Assembly: GCA_016283275.1 (NCBI GenBank)
Contig: JAEEMP010000061.1
Coordinates: forward strand, 43,319 to 107,318
DNA length: 64,000 nt
Direction of reading: 5' to 3'
From: Lachnospiraceae bacterium
GTDB taxonomy: Bacteria; Bacillota; Clostridia; Lachnospirales; Lachnospiraceae
This document shows positions 18,116-32,410 of the stretch, one piece after another. The notes under the pieces were generated by a model. It did not search any database and was not told the origin of the DNA. It was given only the letters and a program-made list of their open reading frames with translations. Numbering within the stretch: position 1 is the stretch's first letter; the number at the start of each line of letters is the position of its first letter. Both the position numbers and the translations under genes were made by a program.

Positions 18116-19180
18116 ATGAAAAAACTTTTAAGTTTATTACTTGCGGTTGCAATGGTAGCTACAATGCTTACCGGTTGCGGCGCAGGCGGAAGTGCCAACA
18201 AGGTCGGTGTATCAATGCCCACCAAGTCTCTTCAGAGATGGAACCAGGATGGTGAGAACATGAAGAAGCTTCTTGAAGCAGCAGGTTACACCGTAGACCT
18301 TCAGTACGCAGATAACATCGTAGAAACCCAGGTTTCTCAGATCGAGAACATGATCAACTCAGGTTGCAAGGTTCTTGTTATCGCAGCAGTTGAAGGCGAC
18401 TCACTCGGAACAGTTCTTGCACAGGCAAAGGAAAAGAACATTCCCGTTATCGCTTATGACCGTCTTATCATGAACTCCGATGCAGTTTCTTACTATGCTA
18501 CATTCGATAACTACATGGTAGGTACAAAGCAGGGTCAGTACATCGAGCAGGAACTCGGTCTTGCAAGCGGCGCAGGCCCCTTCAATATCGAATTGATCAC
18601 AGGTGACCCCGGTGACAACAACGCAAGATTCTTCTTCGGCGGCGCTATGGATGTTCTTCAGAAGTACATCGACAATGGTCAGCTCGTTGTTAAGTCAGGC
18701 CAGGTTGATTTCGATACCGTTGCTACACAGAGCTGGTCAACAGAGAACGCTCAGAACAGATTCGATGCTATCATCTCCGCTAACTATGCTGACGGTACAA
18801 AGCTTGACGCTGTTCTTGCATCGAACGACTCAACCGCTATGGGTGTTACAAACTCTCTTGAAGCTAACTATGCAGGAAATCACGACAACTGGCCCATCAT
18901 CACCGGTCAGGACTGCGATATCGCTAACGTAAAGAACATGATCGCAGGTAAGCAGGCAATGTCTATCTTTAAGGATACCCGTACTCTTGCAGCTAAGACC
19001 GTAGAAATGGTTGATGCTCTTATGAAGGGTGGCGAGGCTCCCGTTAACGATAAGGAGACATATGACAATGGTACAGGTATCATTCCTTCATACCTTTGCG
19101 AGCCCGTATTTGCTGATGTTAACAATTACAAGGAATTATTGATCGACTCCGGTTACTATACCGCAGATCAGCTTCAGTAA
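18116..19180 (+). CDS. chvE: Multiple-sugar-binding lipoprotein (ChvE/XylF-like)
   Basis: VGVSMPTKSLQRWNQDGENMKKLLEAAGYTVDLQYADNIVETQVSQIENMINSGCKVLVIAA...YDRLIMNSDAVSYYATFDN closely resembles ChvE from memory. Confidence 0.88.
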   Translation: MKKLLSLLLAVAMVATMLTGCGAGGSANKVGVSMPTKSLQRWNQDGENMKKLLEAAGYTVDLQYADNIVETQVSQIENMINSGCKVLVIAAVEGDSLGTVLAQAKEKNIPVIAYDRLIMNSDAVSYYATFDNYMVGTKQGQYIEQELGLASGAGPFNIELITGDPGDNNARFFFGGAMDVLQKYIDNGQLVVKSGQVDFDTVATQSWSTENAQNRFDAIISANYADGTKLDAVLASNDSTAMGVTNSLEANYAGNHDNWPIITGQDCDIANVKNMIAGKQAMSIFKDTRTLAAKTVEMVDALMKGGEAPVNDKETYDNGTGIIPSYLCEPVFADVNNYKELLIDSGYYTADQLQ

Positions 19181-19267
19181 GATTTAAAAACAAGACGCAG
19201 GCGGGGCAAAACCCGCCTGTGTTTAAGTAAAGGTATATATGAGAGTATATACAAGGGAGGAATAAAG

Positions 19268-20794
19268 TTGGCTGGTAATATACTGGAAATGAGAAATATA
19301 ACCAAAACATTCCCCGGCGTCAAGGCACTCGATAATGTGTGCCTGGAAGTGGAAGACGGCGAGATCCACGCTCTTGTAGGTGAGAACGGAGCCGGAAAGT
19401 CCACTTTGATGAATGTATTAAGCGGTATCTATCCTTACGGGACCTACGAAGGTGACATAGTATACAGGGATGAAGTGTGTAAATTCAACACCATTAAGGA
19501 TAGCGAACATAAGGGTATAGTAATTATCCACCAGGAACTTGCACTCGTACCTTATATGACTATCGCCGAGAATATGTTTCTGGGTAATGAACGTGGTACA
19601 AATTTAAAGATCAATTGGAATGAAACGAATGAACTTGCAAAGAAATACCTTGATATGGTAGGTCTTAATGAATCCCCGCAGGTTCTGATTAAAGATATAG
19701 GCGTCGGCAAGCAGCAGCTTGTCGAAATAGCGAAAGCTCTCGCAAAGAACGCAAAACTTCTTATTCTTGATGAGCCCACAGCTTCTCTTAACGAAGAAGA
19801 TTCAAGAGCACTCTTAAATCTGCTTCTTAAATTCAAAGAAAACGGAATGACTTCCATTATCATTTCACATAAGCTTAACGAAGTTTCTTATGTAGCGGAC
19901 AAGATTACCGTCATACGTGACGGCTGTACGATCGAGACACTCGACAAGAGAACGGATGATATTTCGGAAGGTCGTATCATAAAGGGTATGGTAGGTCGTG
20001 AGATATCCGATCGTTTCCCTAAGAGAACATCCAACATCGGCGATGTGAAGATGGAGATCAAAAACTGGAGCGCTTATCATCCGCTTTATTCGGAGAGAAA
20101 AGTTGTCGATGACGTAAGCATGTATGTAAGAAAAGGTGAGATAGTGGGTATCTCCGGTCTTATGGGTGCAGGACGCACCGAGCTTGCGATGAGCGTATTC
20201 GGAAAGAGCTACGGCGAGAATATAACCGGTGAGATCTATATCGACGGACAGCAGGTACATCTCGACACTGTCGAAGCGGCGATCAAACATAAACTTGCAT
20301 ATGTAACCGAGGACAGAAAGGGTAACGGTCTTATTCTTTCAAATCCCATAAAGATCAATACGACTCTTTCAAATCTCAACGCCGTAAGTAAAAAAGGTAT
20401 CATAGACAAGGACAGGGAATATCAGGCAGCTGTCGAATACAGACAGAAACTGAATATCAAATGTCCTACCGTTGAACAGAATGTAGGTAACTTATCGGGT
20501 GGTAACCAGCAGAAAGTATTGCTTGCAAAATGGATGTTTGCGGATCCCGATATTCTTATACTCGATGAGCCCACAAGAGGTATCGATGTAGGTGCCAAAT
20601 ACGAGATATACTGCATAATGAACGATCTTGTAAGCATGGGCAAATCCGTAATAATGATATCTTCGGAAATGCCGGAGATTTTAGGTATGTGCGACAGAAT
20701 TTACGTCATGAACGAAGGTAAGATGGTAGCGGAACTTGACGGCAAAGAAGCTACGCAGGAAGCTATAATGTCACACATTATAAGAACCGCGTAG
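19268..20794 (+). CDS. Sugar ABC transporter ATP-binding protein (GguA/XylG-like, two ATPase domains)
   Basis: [25 protein letters not shown]; two nucleotide-binding domains; [40 protein letters not shown]. Confidence 0.92.
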
Positions 20795-20806
20795 GACTAG
20801 GAAGGA

Positions 20807-22006
20807 GTGATAGATATGGACAGAACAAAAGCGCTTGATTTTGCCAAAAAGTATACGATGATAATCGTACTTATTCTTGTACTGGGATTCTTTGCTGTAT
20901 GTACCGGCGGAAGCATATTACTTCCAATGAACGTATCGAGTTTGATCTCCCAGAACGCATATGTGTTTATTCTTGCAACAGGTATGTTGCTTTGTATTTT
21001 AACAGGTGGTAACATCGATCTTTCCGTCGGATCGGTCGTATGTTTCACCGGTGCAGTGGGAGCTGTCTTAATGACAAAGTTCCATGTTCCCTTTATCGTG
21101 ACCGTGCTTTGCATGTTTGCACTCGGTACCGCGATCGGTGCTTTCCAGGCATTCTGGATCGCATTTGTAAGAATACCTCCTTTCATCGTAACTTTGGCAG
21201 GTATGCTTATATTCAGAGGTTTAAGTAACGTAGTTCTTGACGGCCTTACGGTTTCCATCAAGGAATGCACAACATTCGTAAACGTATTCGGCGGCGGAGC
21301 AAACTGCTATATCCCCGATATATTCGGTATCCCCGGATTTAACGGAACATGTATGCTGGTTGGTGCCATCGGCGCTGCGATTTTCCTTGGAATGCAGATC
21401 AAAACAAGAGCCGAAAGGACCAAAAAGAATTTTGAAGTTGAAGGTGCAGCGATATTCTGGACAAAGACGATCCTGATCGCGGCAGTTATACTCGCTTTCT
21501 TCTTCAGACTTTCACAGCACAAGGGTATCCCGACAGTGCTCATCTGGGTACTTATCGTAGTACTCGTATACGGATATATTACATCCAATACAAAGACCGG
21601 TCGTTACTTCTACGCAGTGGGCGGTAACGAAAAGGCTACAAAGCTTTCCGGTATCAATACCAACAAGGTTTACTTCCTTGCATACACCAACATGGGACTT
21701 CTTTCAGCCCTTGCAGGTATGGTCACGATCGCAAGACTTACATCCGCTCAGCCCACATACGGCCAGAACTATGAGATGGATGCGATCGGTTCCTGTTTCA
21801 TCGGTGGTGCTTCGGCATACGGCGGTATCGGAACGGTTCCCGGAGTTATCGTAGGTGCGGTTCTCATGGGTATCATCAACCTTGGTATGTCTCTTATGGG
21901 TGTTGACCAGAACATGCAGAAGGTTGTTAAAGGTCTTGTATTACTTGCAGCCGTAATCTTCGACGTTGTTTCGAAGCGTGGCGGTAAGATGATCTCCAAA
22001 GGCTGA
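20807..22006 (+). CDS. Sugar ABC transporter permease (GguB/XylH-like)
   Basis: Multi-TM; LTGGNIDLSVGSVVCFTGA and AVGGNEKATKLSGINTNKV motifs; co-directional with ATPase. Confidence 0.9.
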   Translation: MIDMDRTKALDFAKKYTMIIVLILVLGFFAVCTGGSILLPMNVSSLISQNAYVFILATGMLLCILTGGNIDLSVGSVVCFTGAVGAVLMTKFHVPFIVTVLCMFALGTAIGAFQAFWIAFVRIPPFIVTLAGMLIFRGLSNVVLDGLTVSIKECTTFVNVFGGGANCYIPDIFGIPGFNGTCMLVGAIGAAIFLGMQIKTRAERTKKNFEVEGAAIFWTKTILIAAVILAFFFRLSQHKGIPTVLIWVLIVVLVYGYITSNTKTGRYFYAVGGNEKATKLSGINTNKVYFLAYTNMGLLSALAGMVTIARLTSAQPTYGQNYEMDAIGSCFIGGASAYGGIGTVPGVIVGAVLMGIINLGMSLMGVDQNMQKVVKGLVLLAAVIFDVVSKRGGKMISKG

Positions 22007-22070: not shown

Positions 22071-22107
22071 AAAGGGAAGGGACCGTTCGGTCCCTTCCTC
22101 TTTTTTA
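22071..22107. terminator. Bidirectional intrinsic terminator between convergent genes
   Basis: ggaagggacc-gttc-ggtcccttcc stem with A-rich 5' and T-rich 3' flanks. Confidence 0.85.
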
Positions 22108-22398
22108 TCTTACCAATTCGTTATATTGTTCGTTGAGCCAGTCGACGGCTTCGCACACGCCTTCTTCGGAAAAAGGAAAATCCTTAAAGACTTTATCTTT
22201 TGAAGTGTTGAAATTAAAAGGCTCGGGCCAGGCATAGGCACGTATCAGATAACCTTCTCTTTCTTCCGGTTTTTTGTAAAAAACGTTATCCAAGGGCTCG
22301 ATCCCTATCCGGTATCTTAATCCCTTATGACTTCCGTAAAATGCCTCACCGTACAGAAAATATGTAAAATGATGAATGTCGCTTCGTTCAATGGCCAT
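22105..22398 (-). CDS. Conserved hypothetical protein (97 aa)
   Basis: Complete ORF MAIERSDIHHFTYFLYGEAFYGSHKGLRYRIGIEPLDNV...; lies between a divergent promoter region and a terminator. Confidence 0.6.
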   Translation of the reverse strand: MAIERSDIHHFTYFLYGEAFYGSHKGLRYRIGIEPLDNVFYKKPEEREGYLIRAYAWPEPFNFNTSKDKVFKDFPFSEEGVCEAVDWLNEQYNELVR

Positions 22399-22508: not shown

Positions 22509-24293
22509 ATGCGTGAACTTGAATATCCGTTTGATGCGGACCTTATTTTATCCAAGAAAAAAAGTTTAAAAAGGCGCCTTTTGGAGGAGTCCGGTTCTTT
22601 TACGGAAAAAAGGATCGCGATCTTAGGCGGCGGTACCACTTCGGATATAAAGCAGATCCTTGAATTGTTTCTTTTAAATTACGGGATCGCGGCTAAATTT
22701 TACGAAAGCGAATACAATGCTTTTTATCGCGATGCGGTATTTGACAATGAAGAGCTTATAAAGTTTAAGCCCGACATTATATATGTGTGCACTTCAAACA
22801 GAAATATAGATGCATATCCTTCTTTAAACGATGACTCCGATACGGTCGACATGCTCTTAAAGCGTGAGACGGACAAGTATATGGCTGTATGGAGATCGTT
22901 AAAAGAACGCTATAACTGCCCGATAATACAGAATAATTTTGAAATGCCGTATTTTAGGCTTCTCGGTAACCGTGATGCGTACGATATCCACGGGAGGGTT
23001 AATTTTTTATCAAGACTTAATGCAAATCTTTACGAATACGCAAGAGAGCATGAAGATTTTCATATCTGCGACATAAACTATATTTCCGCGGATTACGGAC
23101 TTAAAGAATGGTCGGATCCTTTTTACTGGCATATGTACAAATATGCGCTTAACGTTAAGGCTGTCCCGTATCTTTCTTTTAACGTTGCAAATATCATAAA
23201 GTCGATATTCGGAAAAAACAAAAAAGGATTTGTGCTCGATCTTGACAATACACTGTGGGGCGGGGTCATCGGAGACGACGGAGCGGAGAATATAGTGATC
23301 GGCCCGGAAGAATCCGAAGGGCAGGCATATACCGAGTTTCAAAAGTATTTAAAAGCCCATGAAGACCTTGGGATAATATTGAACATCGATTCAAAGAACG
23401 ATGAAGAAAATGCGCTGTTAGGGCTTGATCATCCCGACAGTGTGCTTAAAAAAGACGATTTTATAGTGATAAAGGCCAACTGGGAGCCCAAAGACAAAAA
23501 CTTTAAGGAGATAGCGGATTCGCTCAGCCTTCTTCCCGAAAGTCTTGTATTCGTGGATGATAACCCGGCTGAACGCCATATAGTAAGATCGTCTTTCGGA
23601 AACGTCTCCGCACCCGAGATAGAAACCGATGACATCTCGCATTTTGTGACAGCCATAGACCGCGCGGGTTATTTCGAGGCAACCTCGATCTCGGAAGATG
23701 ATAAAAAGAGGAAAAAGATGTATGAGGATAATGCCAAAAGGGCGCAGGAAGCCGCTTCTTTTACCGATTATCACGACTATCTTATTTCGCTTTCGATGAA
23801 AGCCGATATAAAGGCTTTTGAACCGGTTTATATGGCCAGGATCGCGCAGCTTACAAATAAGAGTAATCAGTTCAACTTAACAACAAAGCGTATGACACAG
23901 GACGAGATCGAAAAGGTCTCGGCAGACGATACGTATATTACCCTTTACGGTAAGCTTACGGACAAGTTCGGAGACAACGGTGTCGTATCGGTAGTCATAG
24001 GGCATATCATCGGGGATGCGCTTGATATAGAGTTATGGCTAATGAGCTGCAGGGTGTTAAAGCGTGATATGGAATACGCTATGCTTGATACTCTTGTAAA
24101 AAGGGCAAAAGAAAAAGGCATAGATAAGTTTTTGGGGCATTATTATCCTACGGCTAAGAACGCAATGGTCAAAGATTTTTACGCCACCCTAGGATTTAAA
24201 AAGATCAAAGAGGAATCCGATATGAGCACCTCTTGGGAACTATCCGTAAAAGATCACAAGGATAAGAACACCGTTATCTGTGTGGAGGAATAA
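22509..24293 (+). CDS. HAD-IIIC / FkbH-like protein with C-terminal GNAT-like domain
   Basis: FVLDLDNTLWGGVIGDDG motif I, FVDDNPAERHIVR motif; N-terminal SGNH-like region; C-terminal NQFNLTTKRM...GDNGVVSVVIG. Start 22509 preferred (GAAAGG upstream); ORF start is 22491. Confidence 0.88.
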   Translation: MRELEYPFDADLILSKKKSLKRRLLEESGSFTEKRIAILGGGTTSDIKQILELFLLNYGIAAKFYESEYNAFYRDAVFDNEELIKFKPDIIYVCTSNRNIDAYPSLNDDSDTVDMLLKRETDKYMAVWRSLKERYNCPIIQNNFEMPYFRLLGNRDAYDIHGRVNFLSRLNANLYEYAREHEDFHICDINYISADYGLKEWSDPFYWHMYKYALNVKAVPYLSFNVANIIKSIFGKNKKGFVLDLDNTLWGGVIGDDGAENIVIGPEESEGQAYTEFQKYLKAHEDLGIILNIDSKNDEENALLGLDHPDSVLKKDDFIVIKANWEPKDKNFKEIADSLSLLPESLVFVDDNPAERHIVRSSFGNVSAPEIETDDISHFVTAIDRAGYFEATSISEDDKKRKKMYEDNAKRAQEAASFTDYHDYLISLSMKADIKAFEPVYMARIAQLTNKSNQFNLTTKRMTQDEIEKVSADDTYITLYGKLTDKFGDNGVVSVVIGHIIGDALDIELWLMSCRVLKRDMEYAMLDTLVKRAKEKGIDKFLGHYYPTAKNAMVKDFYATLGFKKIKEESDMSTSWELSVKDHKDKNTVICVEE

Positions 24294-24533
24294 ATGACAA
24301 GAGAAAAGTTATACGAAGAACTTAACGAGGTTTTTAAGGATGTTTTCGACGATGAGAGCATCTGTGTGGACGATCATACAACAGCAGACGATATAGAGGA
24401 TTGGGACAGTCTTGAACACATAAACCTTATCGTGGCGATCGAAAAGAAGTTTTCGATCAAGTTCAATATGGGCGAAGTCAACAAGTTTAAAAACGTGGGA
24501 GAAATGGCGGACAATATCCTTGCCAAACTGTAA
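24294..24533 (+). CDS. Acyl carrier protein
   Basis: 79 aa, DDIEDWDSLEHINLIVAIEKKFSIKF phosphopantetheine attachment motif; abuts FkbH stop codon. Confidence 0.92.
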   Translation: MTREKLYEELNEVFKDVFDDESICVDDHTTADDIEDWDSLEHINLIVAIEKKFSIKFNMGEVNKFKNVGEMADNILAKL

Positions 24534-24539
24534 TTACCG

Positions 24540-26054
24540 ATGGGCGTAACATCTGTGGGATTTCTGGCGTTTACCGCCGTAAGCATAGTCATATACTATA
24601 TTGTGCCGAGGCGTTTTCAGTGGTGGGTGCTGTTAGCGGACAGCCTTATATTCTATTTTCTGAATTCGGTTGCCTATACGTTCGCATACCTACTTGTTTC
24701 CGTAATTTCGGTATACTTTGCCACTTTGTATTTTGAAAAGCGCGATAAGGGCAAAAAACCGGTCCTTGTACTTACGATAGTATTGAATGCGGGCCTTCTG
24801 GCTGTTTTAAAGTACACAAATCTTGCCATTAACACGGTAAGTTTCATAAGGGAAAGAAGCGGCGGTGAAGCTTTAAAAAACGTTAAGTGGTATGCATCGC
24901 TTGCGATAAGTTTCTATACACTCCAGATCATAGCTTATCTGCTGGACAATTACTGGGGGGTGACGGAAAGGGAAAAGAACCCGCTTAAGCTTCTTTTGTT
25001 TACCTCATATTTTCCGCAGATGATCTCCGGTCCCATAAGCAGGCATTCCGAGCTTGCCCCGCAGTTTTTTAGGGAGCATTCTTTTGATTACGAAAAAGTA
25101 ACAAGAGGTATGCGAAGATGTGCTTTCGGTATAGCAAAAAAGGTGATCGTTGCAGACAGGCTGGCGGTTTTTGTATCGGTGCTCTTTTCGGATCCCGACA
25201 CTTATTCGGGAATCTGGGTAGTTATTGCCGCAGTCTTGTTTATCATACAGCTTTACTTTGATTTCAGCGGCTGCATGGACATAGTGCTGGGTGTTTCGCT
25301 TTCATTCGGCATAGAGCTTACTGAGAATTTCAAAGCTCCTTTTCTTTCAAGAAGCATACAGGAATTCTGGCAGCGCTGGCACATAACACTCGGTGCCTGG
25401 CTTAAATCATACATAATGTATCCGATCCTTAAAACAGATGTTTTTTCCGACATGGCGGTAAAATGCAAAAAGCGACTCGGCAAGCAGGGTAAGAAGATTC
25501 CTTCTTACATCGCAATGCTCGCGGTTTGGTTTTTGATGGGCTTATGGCATGGAAATTCATGGAAATATGTGATCGGCGAAGGGCTTTGGTTCTGGCTTAT
25601 CATCGTGCTCGGACAGGTATTTGAGCCTTTGTTCAAAAAGTTAAAGAATACACTTCACATAAAAGAGGAAAGCGTTCTTTTCAACATATTCAGGGTTGTA
25701 AGGACGGTTCTTTTGTACAGCTTCGGTATGATATTCTTTAACGCAAAGAGCCTTAACGCATCGTTTTATATGATAAGCAGAATGTTTGTGCAAAGCTCAT
25801 TTATCGGGGGTCTTAAATCGCTTTATGACGAAGCGTTTGCAAGTTTCGGCGGATTTGATGCCCTTTTGGCAGTCCTTTTGATGTTCGCGCTTCAGATATA
25901 TGCCGATTTTAAGATCTATGCGGGAAAAGACGTTCAAAAGGCGGTTACAAAAAGATCCCTTGTACAGAGGTGGATATTGTATTTTGCATTTGTATTGTTG
26001 ATCATAACGGAAGGCGCTTTCGGACAAAGCTCCTTTATCTATTTCGGATTTTAG
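24540..26054 (+). CDS. MBOAT-family O-acyltransferase (AlgI/DltB-like)
   Basis: SYFPQMISGPISRHSELAPQF, FDFSGCMDIVLGVSLSFGIEL, FWQRWHITLGAWLKSYIMYPI, and WFLMGLWHGNSWKYVIGEGLWF with catalytic-type His. Confidence 0.93.
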   Translation: MGVTSVGFLAFTAVSIVIYYIVPRRFQWWVLLADSLIFYFLNSVAYTFAYLLVSVISVYFATLYFEKRDKGKKPVLVLTIVLNAGLLAVLKYTNLAINTVSFIRERSGGEALKNVKWYASLAISFYTLQIIAYLLDNYWGVTEREKNPLKLLLFTSYFPQMISGPISRHSELAPQFFREHSFDYEKVTRGMRRCAFGIAKKVIVADRLAVFVSVLFSDPDTYSGIWVVIAAVLFIIQLYFDFSGCMDIVLGVSLSFGIELTENFKAPFLSRSIQEFWQRWHITLGAWLKSYIMYPILKTDVFSDMAVKCKKRLGKQGKKIPSYIAMLAVWFLMGLWHGNSWKYVIGEGLWFWLIIVLGQVFEPLFKKLKNTLHIKEESVLFNIFRVVRTVLLYSFGMIFFNAKSLNASFYMISRMFVQSSFIGGLKSLYDEAFASFGGFDALLAVLLMFALQIYADFKIYAGKDVQKAVTKRSLVQRWILYFAFVLLIITEGAFGQSSFIYFGF

Positions 26055-26057
26055 CAT

Positions 26058-28211
26058 ATGAGTAAAAAAAGCACGGTTTTTGTCCTTATCCTTATTTTTC
26101 TTACCGTAGCGGCAACCCTTATCTATGCGTTTGCCCCGCGCGGAGAAAAGTTATCGTTAAGGACAAAGGATCAAAGTGATCTTGAAAAAATAATCGAAGA
26201 CAGGGAAGAAGATCCAAATCTTTCGGCGACGATCGTATTTAACGGTGAGCGTCTTTTGTTTGATTCGGTCAATTCGGTCTATTATTATTCGCTGAACGAA
26301 GACGATAAAAAAGCGTTTGATCCGCGCACCAAGGTTCTTGAAGAAGGAATAAGATTTCTGATCGCCGGGGATATCAAAGAGGATATGATCGCGAAGGCGG
26401 AGACTTTGCCGATGATCATATACAGCGACTTATCGTATAAAAGAGTAGATCTTGCATTAACAACACTTCCACTCATAAATATCACTTACGACGGAGATCT
26501 TGACGGCGACGGCGCCAAAATGCATCTTTATCTTTACGATAACCGGAAAGGTGTTGAGAACAGGATCACAGAGTCCGATGGCACGATCAGATATCGCGGC
26601 GCATCCACGCTTTTTTATCCCAAAAAGTCGCTTAAGATAAACCTTCTTGACAGAAACGGCGACAAGAACCATACTTCGCTTCTTGGAATGCGTGTTGATG
26701 AGGACTGGATACTTTATGCACTTTATAACGATCAGGATAAGGTAAGGGACGTTTTTTCGCAAAAGCTTTGGTATGAAGGCTGTGCAAAAGACAATTCCTG
26801 GGGCGTGACCGCGGGAATGGAGTATAAATACACCGAGGTGCTTTTAAACGGTGAATACATGGGAATGTATGCGCTCGGTTATCCCATCGATGAAAAGCAG
26901 TTAAACCTTTCGGGCGACTTTAGGAAGGAAGCTTTATACAAAAAGCAGGGATGGGACAGCGAAGAACTGCTTGGCATGAATGTCTGGGGAGGATTTCCGG
27001 GATACGAGTGCAAGACCGATAACAGACTTGTTTCACAGGGTTATACAGGTGAGTTCGGCGTATGGACAAACGGCAAGGGCGATACTAAGACAGATATGTC
27101 CGAGTGGCAGCTTCTTTATAAGTATTACTTTTATCTTTCGGATAATGCGCATGATTCCGATAAGATGATCGATCTTATCGATGTAAACAATGCGATCGAC
27201 ATATACATTTTTTACAATCTCATCCAGGGCTATGACAGTGTAAGGGACGATCTTATAAAAAACACCTATATTGCTGTCAGGGAAAAAGAAAAAAAGCTTT
27301 CCGTACTCTATGTACCGTGGGATATGGATATCACCTGGGGCAACACCTGGATAGCGGACGGCGACATTAATTTTATTGTCCCGGATCATTACTCACCGAC
27401 GGATAATTTTATATCCTTATACGGTCCGCTTGAGCAGATCATTTTAAACGGCGATACGGATATATTCGAAAAAGTTTCAAAACGCTATTTTGAGTTAAGG
27501 GATACCGCATGGTCGGATGAAAATGTAAATCTTATCCTCGATGAATACGAGGCAGATATTTTCTATTCGGGTGCATATATCCGAGAAGCGCAAAGATGGC
27601 CCGACGCAACGCTTCGTGATCCTTCGGAGGATCTTTCAAGATTCAGATCGTATGTTCTTGAAAGATTTAAGGCTACGGACTTATATTATTCGGGCATGAA
27701 GGACTTTAACGGCCTTTCAAAGTATGTTTTAAGGACAAAGGCTTTTTCCGATTTTTCCACATCGTGGATATTTATCGAACTTAACGATCATTCTCTTATG
27801 GAAGACCCGGCTTTTCTCGATCTTTTGAATGAAGCATATGTGGACGGAAGCAAAATAACGGAAAATACACATTTTATCGTAGGAAACATTGCGGACGGAT
27901 ACAGTTATCATGACGATGAGCCGAATAACAGTTACGATCTCGGTACGGGACTTGGGAATTTTGTGCTCAAAAGGCTTGAGACAGGGGAATATTTATATGA
28001 TGACAGTTATACCGTATGCTTGAATGATCTTCCCGCATATGATATAAGAATTTCGGAGCGGGAACCTGTATATTTAGGTATCTTCAAAGACGGACGCATC
28101 AGTATGTTTAGTTTTTCGGGCTATTATGAGCCCACGGTCGACATTGATTCGTTAAAAGATGAGACGCTTATCAAACTTGCGGAAGACTATTTAAACGGTA
28201 AGGGCGAATGA
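26058..28211 (+). CDS. CotH-like protein (CotH kinase family), secreted/membrane-anchored
   Basis: N-terminal TM; IRYRGASTLFYPKKSLKINLLDRNG...LLGMRVDEDWILYALYNDQDKVRDVFSQKLW...LSVLYVPWDMDITWGN. Confidence 0.85.
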   Translation: MSKKSTVFVLILIFLTVAATLIYAFAPRGEKLSLRTKDQSDLEKIIEDREEDPNLSATIVFNGERLLFDSVNSVYYYSLNEDDKKAFDPRTKVLEEGIRFLIAGDIKEDMIAKAETLPMIIYSDLSYKRVDLALTTLPLINITYDGDLDGDGAKMHLYLYDNRKGVENRITESDGTIRYRGASTLFYPKKSLKINLLDRNGDKNHTSLLGMRVDEDWILYALYNDQDKVRDVFSQKLWYEGCAKDNSWGVTAGMEYKYTEVLLNGEYMGMYALGYPIDEKQLNLSGDFRKEALYKKQGWDSEELLGMNVWGGFPGYECKTDNRLVSQGYTGEFGVWTNGKGDTKTDMSEWQLLYKYYFYLSDNAHDSDKMIDLIDVNNAIDIYIFYNLIQGYDSVRDDLIKNTYIAVREKEKKLSVLYVPWDMDITWGNTWIADGDINFIVPDHYSPTDNFISLYGPLEQIILNGDTDIFEKVSKRYFELRDTAWSDENVNLILDEYEADIFYSGAYIREAQRWPDATLRDPSEDLSRFRSYVLERFKATDLYYSGMKDFNGLSKYVLRTKAFSDFSTSWIFIELNDHSLMEDPAFLDLLNEAYVDGSKITENTHFIVGNIADGYSYHDDEPNNSYDLGTGLGNFVLKRLETGEYLYDDSYTVCLNDLPAYDIRISEREPVYLGIFKDGRISMFSFSGYYEPTVDIDSLKDETLIKLAEDYLNGKGE

Positions 28212-28232
28212 TCCTTTCCGTGTGGGAGAGTT

Positions 28233-30248
28233 ATGACAGCGGATTTATATACGTTTTCTTTATCAATTTTCATAATCACTTTGGCCATTTTGTTAAGGCA
28301 GCATCTGTCGCTTAAGGTTGCGGACAAGTTATCGCGGTATTTTAATGCGGTGCTTGTGATCTCAATACTGTTCTGTATGATCGATCTTTTGTGGGGCCTG
28401 TGCTACTTTCGCCTGATGCCGGCGAACAGTGTTGCTTTGAGCGTATTTACATATATATATCACATCTTTGCACTTGCCATGGCAATAGGCTGGTATATGT
28501 ATACTTCGGCATATCTTGAATTTAAAGATTCCCTTTTTATGAAGCTGCTGGTCTTCATTCCGGTTGTTGCGGGTGTGGCTTTATTGTATATAAATTATAC
28601 GACGGGATTACTGTTTTATATATCGGGCGATATGGAGTTTCATGTCGGCCCCGTTCGAATGGCTCTGTTTGCCATGGAACTATTCTATGTGCTTGCAGCT
28701 TTGGCAAGAACACTGGTAAGGCTTTCGGCCGAAAACGATGCTTTCAAAAAGAGCCGTTATAAAGTTGTGCTTACTTATCTTATCGTGCTTTTGGGCTTCG
28801 GCATCGCTCAGCTGTTTTTTGTGATAGCACCGATCTATTCGGCAAGCCTTATGATAAGCGCGCTTATCGTTTTTATAGGAAATATCACGACAGAGAGAGA
28901 AAAAAGGCTTTCGGACAAGTCCGATTATTACATGACGGAGTCGAGGGAATCATTCAGGGCACTGTCAGCGCTTGCGGAAGCATATGTATCCATTCACGTT
29001 ATCGATCTTGTAAACAATACGGTTACGGAAATCCGTTCACCTCACTATGTGGAACGGTTTGTATTGCAGGATGAAGGTGCGGATATGCAGATAAGACGTG
29101 CGATGGAAGCGGTTGCCATTCCGGAAATGGAAGAAGAGATACTGGAATTTGTGGATCTTGGTACATTACGTGAACGCCTTAAAGACAAAACCAGTATAAG
29201 CCACGAATTTATAAGCCGTTACGAAGGCTGGAGCCTTTCAACTTTTACCAGGATGGAAGAGGATACCGTGGGTGAACCCACCAAGGTTTTGCACGCAGTT
29301 TTGGATATAGATGAAGGTAAAAGAAAAGAAATTGAATATCAGGAGGCATTAAAAGTCGCCCTTGAAAACAAAAACGAAATATATGCCGAAATGCTCAGAA
29401 TGCAGGCGGGCGGTATCGTGGCATCCGATGATAAGGGTCAGCTCATATTTATAAACGATGCGGCTGCAAAGATGTTCGGTTATATGACATATAAAGAGGT
29501 TGGCGGTTCATATACCGCTATCCTTGAGAGAATGGAATCGGATCAGAAAGAGGAATTGCCGGAGCTGTTGAGACGCGTGGTAAAAGAAGGCATGAAGCTG
29601 GTATTCTATTTTTCCACAGCGGATTACAAGAGCAGGCAGATATATGCGAGAGCCGACGTAAGGCGGCTTCAGCTTAAGAACGGAAGCAACATTGTAATAA
29701 CATCTCTTACCGATATGACAGCCAATAAGGAAATAGAAGATAAGCTTACGGTCCTTTCGGAGACTGATGCGCTTACGGGTATCAGGAACAGAGGAAGCGG
29801 CGAGAGTCTTACGATCAGAGAACTTAAAAGCGGGGTGCAGGGCATGTTCTGCCTTGTGGATGCCAATAACTTCAAGAATATAAACGATACATACGGACAT
29901 CAGGCAGGCGATAAAGCGCTTATAGCGATAGCCGAAACATTAAAGGCATCATTCAGGGATGACGATATCGTCATGAGACTCGGCGGCGATGAGTTTGCCG
30001 TATTTGCCAAGTCGATCATGGACAAACAGCTCGCTCAGACGGTCATAAGAAGATTTTTCGACCGACTGTCATCCGTAATAATAGAAGAGTTAAACGGAGA
30101 AAAACTCACGGTAAGCCTTGGGGCTGTGTTTACCGAAGGCGACGGGCAGGATACGTTCGAGCAATTGTACAGCAGAGCGGACTCTGTGATGTACCTTTGC
30201 AAGCACGAAAAAAATACAAGCAATATGGCATTTTACGAAGTGCATTAA
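28233..30248 (+). CDS. Membrane diguanylate cyclase (7TM N-terminus, PAS, GGDEF)
   Basis: Multiple N-terminal TM segments; GIVASDDKGQLIFINDAAAKMFGY PAS; VMRLGGDEFAVF active site with RDDD I-site 5 residues upstream. Confidence 0.9.
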   Translation: MTADLYTFSLSIFIITLAILLRQHLSLKVADKLSRYFNAVLVISILFCMIDLLWGLCYFRLMPANSVALSVFTYIYHIFALAMAIGWYMYTSAYLEFKDSLFMKLLVFIPVVAGVALLYINYTTGLLFYISGDMEFHVGPVRMALFAMELFYVLAALARTLVRLSAENDAFKKSRYKVVLTYLIVLLGFGIAQLFFVIAPIYSASLMISALIVFIGNITTEREKRLSDKSDYYMTESRESFRALSALAEAYVSIHVIDLVNNTVTEIRSPHYVERFVLQDEGADMQIRRAMEAVAIPEMEEEILEFVDLGTLRERLKDKTSISHEFISRYEGWSLSTFTRMEEDTVGEPTKVLHAVLDIDEGKRKEIEYQEALKVALENKNEIYAEMLRMQAGGIVASDDKGQLIFINDAAAKMFGYMTYKEVGGSYTAILERMESDQKEELPELLRRVVKEGMKLVFYFSTADYKSRQIYARADVRRLQLKNGSNIVITSLTDMTANKEIEDKLTVLSETDALTGIRNRGSGESLTIRELKSGVQGMFCLVDANNFKNINDTYGHQAGDKALIAIAETLKASFRDDDIVMRLGGDEFAVFAKSIMDKQLAQTVIRRFFDRLSSVIIEELNGEKLTVSLGAVFTEGDGQDTFEQLYSRADSVMYLCKHEKNTSNMAFYEVH

Positions 30249-30328: not shown

Positions 30329-32410
30329 ATGAAAAGAAAACATGCAGGCAAATTTAAATTTGCCGTCCCCGGGGTTAGTATCCGCACCAAGATGATATTC
30401 AGCATTTTGATACCGGTCATCTTTATGATGATCATCGGTATGGCTGCATACAGTACGGCGGAGAGAGGCATGCGTGAAAAGTACGAGGCCTCCACGATGG
30501 AATCCGTCAACATGGCTTCCGCACATGTGGAGCTTGTATCGTCGTTTATACGAGGCGAGACCACAAAATATGCTTTCGATGAGAACTTAAGAAAACTCAC
30601 ATCGGGTTTTTATAAAGACGATCTTTTGGCAAGAAAGTACGCCATTGATGCGGTGGGTTCGAGCCTTATGTCCAGCCAGTCCACCAATTCTTTTATTGAG
30701 AATATACATATCATCACTGATCCGTCCGATAAGATGTTTTCCACCAAATCCAATTCAATAGACGGAATATTTCCCGCATATAGGGATTCGATGCTGGCAG
30801 ACGACAGCGGGAAAAAGATAGTAAACTGGATAGATTCACATCCGCTTGTCGATGAAGCTTTTTCTTTGTCGCCTACGGAATCATATATTCTTTCTTATCA
30901 GATGATGGGTTCAAGCAATAAGTGCATTGTGGTCATTGATATTTCCAAGAAAGCAATGCAGGAGTTTCTTGACGAGGTTGACTTGGGTCCGGGTTCCGTT
31001 ATAGCAATGGTTACAATGAACGGTCGTGAGATATACCACGAAAGCGGCACGAAGAATTATCCGGAAGGCGATGTGATCTTTTACGGAAGGGATTTTTACG
31101 ATAAGGCCGTAAAAGCGGTTGCTGCGGGTGAGACCGCAGGACACAGTGAAGTAAAGATTGAAGGAAAGAGTTATCTTTTCTTTTACTCATCGTGTGCACT
31201 TTCCGGTTCCATGATATGTGCGCTCGTACCCTTAAAGACGGTTACCGAACAAGCCAATTCGATAAGGTCGCTTACGATAGTTCTGGTCCTTATCGCGATC
31301 GTTGTGGTAATGACCATAGGGATGCTCATATCCAACAGCATAAGAGCAAACGTTAAACGTATATCGGGCAGACTTGATGAAGTTGCCAAGGGAGATCTTA
31401 CCGTTTCCGTTACCGCAAAAGGCAATGATGAATTTAAAGGACTTGCGGCTTCTGCAAGCGATATGGTGGTAAATACAAAGAATCTTGTTAAGAAAGTCGA
31501 TGATGCAACTGTTCAGCTCGAATCGTCTTCCGTAAATGTTAAGGAGGCAACCGATGCTTTGGGCGACTGCTCAAACGATATTTCCTATGCGGTTTCGGAT
31601 ATAGCAAAGGGCATGGAACGCCAGTCAAGACATGCCGAAGAGTGTGTCAGGACAACTGACAGTTTATCGGAAGAGATCAGGAACGTTGCCGAAATGGTCG
31701 AAAAGGTAAGAGTTCTTATCAAAGAAACCGGCGCCATGATCGAGGAGGGAGTTAAACTTATCAAAAACCTCGGCAATAAGGCGGATGAGACTACCAAGGT
31801 AACCGAAGAAGTAAGCATTAGTATAGACGGACTTCGTGCGGAGTCCGAGAATATCAGTAACTTTGCGGGAGTTATTACCGATATTTCTTCTCAGACAAAC
31901 CTTCTTTCACTAAACGCATCGATCGAGGCCGCCCGTGCCGGAGATGCGGGACGCGGTTTTGCCGTTGTGGCGGAAGAGATACGCAAGCTTGCCGATGAAT
32001 CGGCCGAAGCTGCCGGAGAGATCGCAAAGCAGGTTGAAAAGATTAATGTTCAGACCGTCAATACGGTTACAAATTCAGCACGTGCTCAGGAGATCGTTAA
32101 CGAACAATCCGGCCTTGTAATGGAAGGTGTACAGGTTTTCAATAAGATGCATGAGAGAATGGAAGCTCTTACAGAAGGCCTTGAAGATATCATTGAGGCA
32201 TCACGTTCTGCGGATGCAATGAGAAGCGAGGCGGTCGGAGCCGTAAGAAATATTTCCGATATCATAGGAGAAACGGCCGAGAATGCGGAAACCGTTATGA
32301 AGGCAGCCGACAGACTAAAAGACAGCGTGGCTAACCTTGATGCAACAGCCAATGAGTTAAGTGACAGTATGGCGGGACTCAAGACGGAGATCGAGGTATT
32401 TAAGATTTAA
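30329..32410 (+). CDS. Methyl-accepting chemotaxis protein
   Basis: TM-extracellular-TM-HAMP architecture; signalling tip [47 protein letters not shown]. Confidence 0.95.

Follow-up and report, generated by a model that had tools for sequence, protein, structure and literature searches.

A candidate Dlt-like envelope acylation operon served by an FkbH-type loader in Lachnospiraceae

What might an FkbH-type enzyme and a stand-alone acyl carrier protein (ACP) do at a locus without polyketide genes? The question is raised by a 64,000-nucleotide stretch of a rumen Lachnospiraceae genome (GenBank assembly GCA_016283275.1, contig JAEEMP010000061.1, positions 43,319 to 107,318 of the forward strand), hereafter the window, in which the genes for these two proteins are followed by those for a membrane-bound O-acyltransferase (MBOAT), a CotH-family protein, and a GGDEF-domain diguanylate cyclase. 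In the tetronate and methoxymalonate polyketide pathways FkbH likewise adjoins a stand-alone ACP (PMC7489565); however, as the initial annotation of this DNA had noted, there is no polyketide synthase (PKS) here, and neither PKS, nonribosomal peptide synthetase (NRPS), nor glycosyltransferase genes occur in or directly beside the operon, whose loaded product would instead go to the MBOAT. We propose, with a probability of about 0.62, that the operon specifies an acylation system that resembles Dlt but has had its loader exchanged; it would be fed by FkbH and the ACP, completed by an SGNH-family protein, and accompanied by CotH as an accessory. By this means the bacterium appears to decorate an extracytoplasmic envelope polymer with a small acid drawn from sugar breakdown, the most likely output being an extracytoplasmic glycan that bears a glyceryl ester.

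In the pathway that we envisage, FkbH is predicted to charge the operon ACP with glyceryl drawn from 1,3-bisphosphoglycerate, an intermediate of glycolysis, as is typical of the chemistry of its family. The MBOAT would then carry the acyl group from the ACP thioester across the membrane to the Tyr of its own FIYFGF motif, by analogy with the PatA/DltX mechanism; a DltD-like SGNH protein, whose gene lies on a separate contig (C56), would transfer it from there to the glycan. CotH would be a membrane-anchored, kinase-fold accessory whose target is probably that acceptor or its carrier and which would not itself be the acyl transferase; within one genus it accompanies the MBOAT with either loader. 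The diguanylate cyclase, in turn, probably links the locus to a sessile way of life attached to surfaces.

The loader, its carrier, and the acyltransferase

All five genes were recovered as intact open reading frames (ORFs) on the plus strand, and the gaps of 0, 6, 3, and 21 bp that separate FkbH, ACP, MBOAT, CotH, and GGDEF bear out the tight packing described initially, as do Pfam and NCBIfam models the names given to the five products (Table 1). The FkbH protein matches TIGR01686 at 257 bits (cut-off 147) as well as the FkbH_N domain (PF21211), which is part of a cytoplasmic enzyme. Its catalytic residues are present: the HAD motif DLDNT, the DDN motif, and the Cys of MSCR are invariant or nearly so in an alignment of 18 relatives, and the nearest solved relative is 3slr. 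The start at 22509, favored earlier, is to be preferred over 22491 because it is preceded by a ribosome-binding-like site, AGAAAGG, and yields an N terminus (M-RELEYPFD) like that of the relatives. The ACP is recognized by PF00550 at 24.3 bits (cut-off 20.8), retains the serine of the DSL motif, and is classed by family models as non-DltC.

The MBOAT is detected by PF03062 at 64 bits and reaches 142 bits with the DltB model, below the equivalog cut-off of 375. Its core aligns with the DltB structures 6bug and 8jem, and the invariant His281 and His337 match the histidines of the DltB RWH and WHG motifs. The protein ends in FIYFGF, a version of the FXYXXF acyl-shuttle motif of DltX and PatA that is strictly matched in 35 of 45 MBOAT sequences of the family; passage of the acyl group from the Tyr of this motif to an SGNH protein has been demonstrated for PatA and is cited for DltX (PMC12148441). 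Since the MBOAT carries its own C-terminal FXYXXF it needs no DltX, and the gaps of 0 to 21 bp leave no space between the operon genes for a small ORF encoding this microprotein.

Conservation of the module and a probable exchange of its loader

The analysis covered FkbH relatives of 52% identity or more from nine genera besides that of the window. In eight of the nine an MBOAT gene lies within 10 kb of FkbH, against about 0.03 expected per locus, a linkage far beyond chance. Other neighbors at these loci are SGNH/DltD-like proteins (GDSL-like or with GSS...DxxH), VOC/glyoxalase-like proteins, glycosyltransferases, and GT-C-like DUF6056 or DUF6020 proteins; CotH occurs in none of the FkbH-ACP-MBOAT clusters examined there. 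Judged from these gene neighborhoods, the FkbH-ACP-MBOAT core recurs across Lachnospiraceae as a predicted module for envelope acylation, fed by the ACP and of the MBOAT-SGNH (Dlt/Pat) kind. The spread beyond the family is scarcely informed by a phylum-wide search, because this returned just two further close FkbH proteins. A VOC/glyoxalase-like gene, absent from the window operon, adjoins FkbH-ACP-MBOAT at loci L033 (9273-9674), L036, L038, L096, L097, L098, and L104, and its product may tailor or epimerize the ACP-bound acyl group. MaoC-like genes are found near the ACP at other FkbH loci (L034:6155-7537, L046:10865-12248, and L084:14361-15116) and SDR-like genes in some, which hints at reduced C3 acyl groups of other kinds.

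A survey of 18 genomes from the genus itself found CotH orthologues in eight, and in six of the eight they adjoin an MBOAT of the window clade, an adjacency that persists in six species at CotH identities down to 44% and through changes of loader and gene order. The order FkbH-ACP-MBOAT-CotH is seen in the window genome (G000) and in G107; CotH-MBOAT-SGNH-DltA-DltC-GGDEF-MCP, the last gene encoding a methyl-accepting chemotaxis protein (MCP), in G108 and G112; CotH-MBOAT-SGNH-DltA, cut off by a contig end, in G116; MBOAT-CotH at a contig end in G115; and, with no CotH alongside, MBOAT-SGNH-FkbH-ACP in G102 and MBOAT-SGNH in G110, where one MBOAT copy has no loader on its contig. Of the neighborhood highlighted in the initial annotation, it is the FkbH-MBOAT linkage that recurs across genera; the exact four-gene order is confined to the window and a 92-94% identical sister species, represented by a metagenome-assembled genome from yak omasum (L053, the same sequence as L081).

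The DltA at the swapped locus exceeds the subfamily cut-off of PRK04813 and falls just under the TIGR01734 cut-off (L085/L086), and the DltC exceeds both of its cut-offs, including the equivalog one (L085). The window locus has neither, and the best DltA-like match in its genome is 36% identical and on another contig. In a tree of the MBOATs the DltA-linked branch (support 100/100) is nested in a clade (100/98) whose remaining members, except for G115 and one G110 copy, are FkbH-linked. This nesting points to a swap of loaders, for which a single event suffices, and the simplest reading is that DltA-DltC took the place of FkbH-ACP once at this locus. Such an exchange in turn argues for a carrier protein as the source of the acyl group that the MBOAT takes up. 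The route suggested at the outset, from an FkbH-derived, ACP-borne unit through the MBOAT to an extracytoplasmic polymer, is accordingly favored by the FIYFGF motif, by the exchange of FkbH/ACP and DltA/DltC, and by the recurrence of FkbH-ACP-MBOAT-SGNH in other genera.

The candidate partner of this MBOAT is a putative SGNH-family protein of about 350-364 residues, marked by GSS and DxxH motifs, whose gene adjoins the MBOAT in G102, G108, G112, G116, and G110, with products of 353-364 residues in these five. In the window genome it lies outside the operon (C56:1325-2371), among neighbors that look polysaccharide-related. A profile of the family found one copy each in eight of the nine genomes searched, including that of the window and G115 (on C60): all eight that hold the window MBOAT clade have it, and G109, which lacks the clade, does not. 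A locus other than the window operon would thus probably supply the SGNH step. The initial statement that no SGNH/DltD partner is separately encoded thus holds for the operon but probably not for the genome, where the C56 gene is orthologous to those that adjoin the MBOAT in five relatives.

CotH, the diguanylate cyclase, and the genomic setting

The CotH protein matches PF08757 at 109 bits, over the cut-off, and its single N-terminal membrane helix and predicted outside location fit the extracytoplasmic placement given to it initially. Structure prediction, which had been recommended, recovered a kinase fold: in a Foldseek search with the AlphaFold2 model (mean predicted local distance difference test score 80) the only significant matches were the Bacillus cereus CotH kinases 5jda (E 5.9e-14) and 5jd9 (E 1.5e-13). 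A phmmer search against solved structures gave no match, the CotH structures being reached through the predicted fold only. Among its relatives D393 is invariant and N402 and D422 nearly so; Bacillus subtilis CotH needs D228 and D251 (PMC7821199), with which we tentatively equate these conserved residues by motif and not by direct alignment. The protein thus shares the fold and acidic catalytic residues of the Bacillus spore-coat kinase, but differs in its predicted extracytoplasmic location with a membrane anchor, in its identity of about 15%, and in an extra C-terminal domain. ATP-dependent phosphotransfer is putative, the protein being predicted to face the cell exterior, where one would not expect ATP. 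It would be a speculative and quite improbable extension that CotH phosphorylates the glyceryl ester or a nearby glycan with a non-ATP donor, such as polyphosphate, giving a surface phosphoglycerate under the control of cyclic di-GMP.

The C-terminal domain of about 150 residues (residues ~548-690) is single in the window CotH and tandem in several relatives (L055, L056, L058, L059, L061, and L070). A likeness by eye to the ILEI-like domains of MBOAT-linked SGNH proteins was rejected, as the profile comparison was not significant (best E 0.054); an iterated search with the domain returned the query alone, and Foldseek found no match to it. Outside the genus the relatives of CotH mostly occur with VTC and DUF4956, both absent beside the window CotH. 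The window genome has a VTC on contig C103 (L080) and encodes another CotH protein on C20 (L078:5994-7631), both unlinked to the window CotH. CotH, the VTC polyphosphate polymerase, and DUF4956 have been reported beside Gram-positive Pel clusters, with a diguanylate cyclase or phosphodiesterase gene in bifidobacteria (PMC7112168). Both settings tie a surface CotH to envelope or exopolysaccharide genes and to a cyclic di-GMP enzyme, but the window CotH sits with an MBOAT acylation module and away from the VTC. In G109 (L083:4410-10085) the CotH gene has no MBOAT beside it, and a gene for a 1891-residue subtilase with Big_2 repeats comes next.

The diguanylate cyclase has a GGDEF domain (115 bits) and a PAS domain, and a syntenic orthologue accompanies CotH-MBOAT in L085 and L086. 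This synteny is what is observed; the coupling of the locus to cyclic di-GMP is our inference. Downstream of the operon come the MCP gene and then other genes. A promoter scan found sites no more numerous than in shuffled sequence. A 97-residue protein (MAIERSDIHHF...; window 22105-22398, minus strand) without a Pfam match has kept its position ahead of the CotH locus, on the upstream side, in several species of the genus (L082, L083, L085, L086, and L092). The draft genome that holds the window has 2.46 Mb in 130 contigs and is about 86% complete.

Table 1. Features of the acylation operon and its surroundings in the window
Feature	Position	Strand	Remarks
FkbH-type gene	22509..24293 (longest ORF starts 22491)	+	FkbH_N, HAD-IIIC, and C-terminal acyltransferase-like region
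Stand-alone ACP gene	24294..24533	+	Phosphopantetheine Ser39 in WDSLEH
DltB/AlgI-type MBOAT gene	24540..26054	+	His281 and His337 conserved; aligns to DltB 6bug/8jem
Acyl-shuttle hexapeptide FIYFGF, MBOAT C terminus	26034..26051	+	MBOAT residues 499-504
CotH-family gene	26058..28211	+	N-terminal membrane anchor (2-24), kinase fold, C-terminal domain of ~150 residues
Membrane PAS-GGDEF diguanylate cyclase gene	28233..30248	+	RxxD I-site and GGDEF intact
Methyl-accepting chemotaxis protein (MCP) gene	30329..32410	+	Syntenic with locus in related species; operon membership uncertain
Terminator-like hairpin	22074..22099	+	Closes upstream sugar transporter; acylation operon begins after hairpin
Complete ChvE-GguAB sugar transporter	18116-22006		Upstream of operon

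Alternative explanations and relation to known systems

Several points weigh against the proposed system. The SGNH assignment comes from the GSS and DxxH motifs and from weak profile matches (E 2.6e-5 to a DltD-like set and 8.4e-5 to another SGNH set, with a CotH control at ~0.05), and the protein has no Pfam match. Its partnership with the MBOAT is deduced from a pattern of co-occurrence across nine genomes of a single genus, since the gene is unlinked to the operon, and the copy in the sister species (L100, G107:C74) has one in-frame TAG, a sign that the gene decayed recently or that the assembly is wrong at this point. Further, the glycan is a putative acceptor, and the formation of glyceryl-ACP by FkbH is predicted from family chemistry. 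The SGNH step has also been explained otherwise: the initial annotation suggested that CotH, or the FkbH N-terminal region, replaces the SGNH protein as extracytoplasmic transferase. In keeping with this idea the operon lacks an SGNH gene, and CotH is the gene right after the MBOAT in the window and L081, and the gene right after or right before it in L085, L086, L090, and L091. Nevertheless, CotH and SGNH share an operon in L085, L086, and L091, MBOAT-SGNH occurs without adjacent CotH in G102 and G110, and the window genome has the orthologous gene on C56, because of which neither candidate need replace SGNH. We therefore rejected CotH in this role, along with FkbH_N on account of its cytoplasmic enzyme, and regard such a substitution as the least probable of the alternatives considered here.

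The position of CotH leaves room for another explanation, that it and the cyclase are functionally independent neighbors of a plain FkbH-ACP-MBOAT-SGNH system. Its relatives outside the genus keep company mostly with VTC and DUF4956 rather than MBOAT, G109 has CotH without an MBOAT of the window clade, and the clusters of other genera manage without it; we nonetheless judge independence unlikely in view of the CotH-MBOAT adjacency that outlasts sequence divergence, loader exchange, and rearrangement in six species. The acyl group itself could be other than glyceryl, for instance lactyl or hydroxypropionyl, if glyceryl-ACP were tailored before transfer. The VOC/glyoxalase-like, MaoC-like, and SDR-like genes beside FkbH-ACP at other loci would suit such a conversion, but none of them is present in the window operon, for which we consider it rather improbable. 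More doubtful still is a role of the MBOAT in natural-product tailoring, with a small molecule or glycolipid as acceptor instead of an envelope polymer: FkbH and MBOAT genes do appear together in certain cyanobacterial clusters of the aeruginosin type, and a sugar has been proposed as the target of acylation by the MBOAT there (PMC13122637), yet no NRPS, PKS, or glycosyltransferase gene lies in or immediately next to the window operon, the MBOAT is of the DltB type with a shuttle motif and a candidate DltD-like partner, and several related clusters adjoin glycosyltransferases or GT-C-like membrane proteins.

The system that we favor, a Dlt-like one loaded by FkbH, shares with Dlt (DltABCDX) an ACP-borne small acyl donor, a DltB-like MBOAT with both histidines, the FXYXXF shuttle, and a putative DltD-like SGNH protein in the genome, and the corresponding locus in species of the same genus carries DltA-DltC. 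It differs in that the loader is FkbH and not an adenylating enzyme, the predicted unit is glyceryl instead of D-alanyl, the shuttle is fused to the MBOAT instead of being a DltX microprotein, the SGNH gene is unlinked, and CotH and GGDEF are added. With PatA-PatB (PMC12148441) it has in common the C-terminal hexapeptide of the MBOAT with its invariant Tyr and, putatively, a separate SGNH protein, but PatA uses acetyl-CoA, whereas the window has a dedicated ACP and FkbH. Each part is thus already known and the assembly is Dlt-like; the new element is the feeding of an MBOAT-SGNH system by FkbH, of which we found no description in the open-access literature searched, where searches for FkbH with MBOAT, or for glycerate in polysaccharides, returned natural-product papers only. 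The presence of CotH beside a defined acylation machine offers a route to its role outside spores, and this role is the part of the system that could prove newer than the Dlt-like assembly. If our proposal is right, Dlt-like envelope acylation would be modular at the loading step, one MBOAT clade being fed by either an amino-acid adenylating enzyme and DltC or FkbH and an ACP, and the natural swap inside one genus makes this idea directly testable. The FkbH version would join a glycolytic intermediate directly to surface chemistry, with a neutral hydroxy-acid ester in place of the cationic D-alanyl one.

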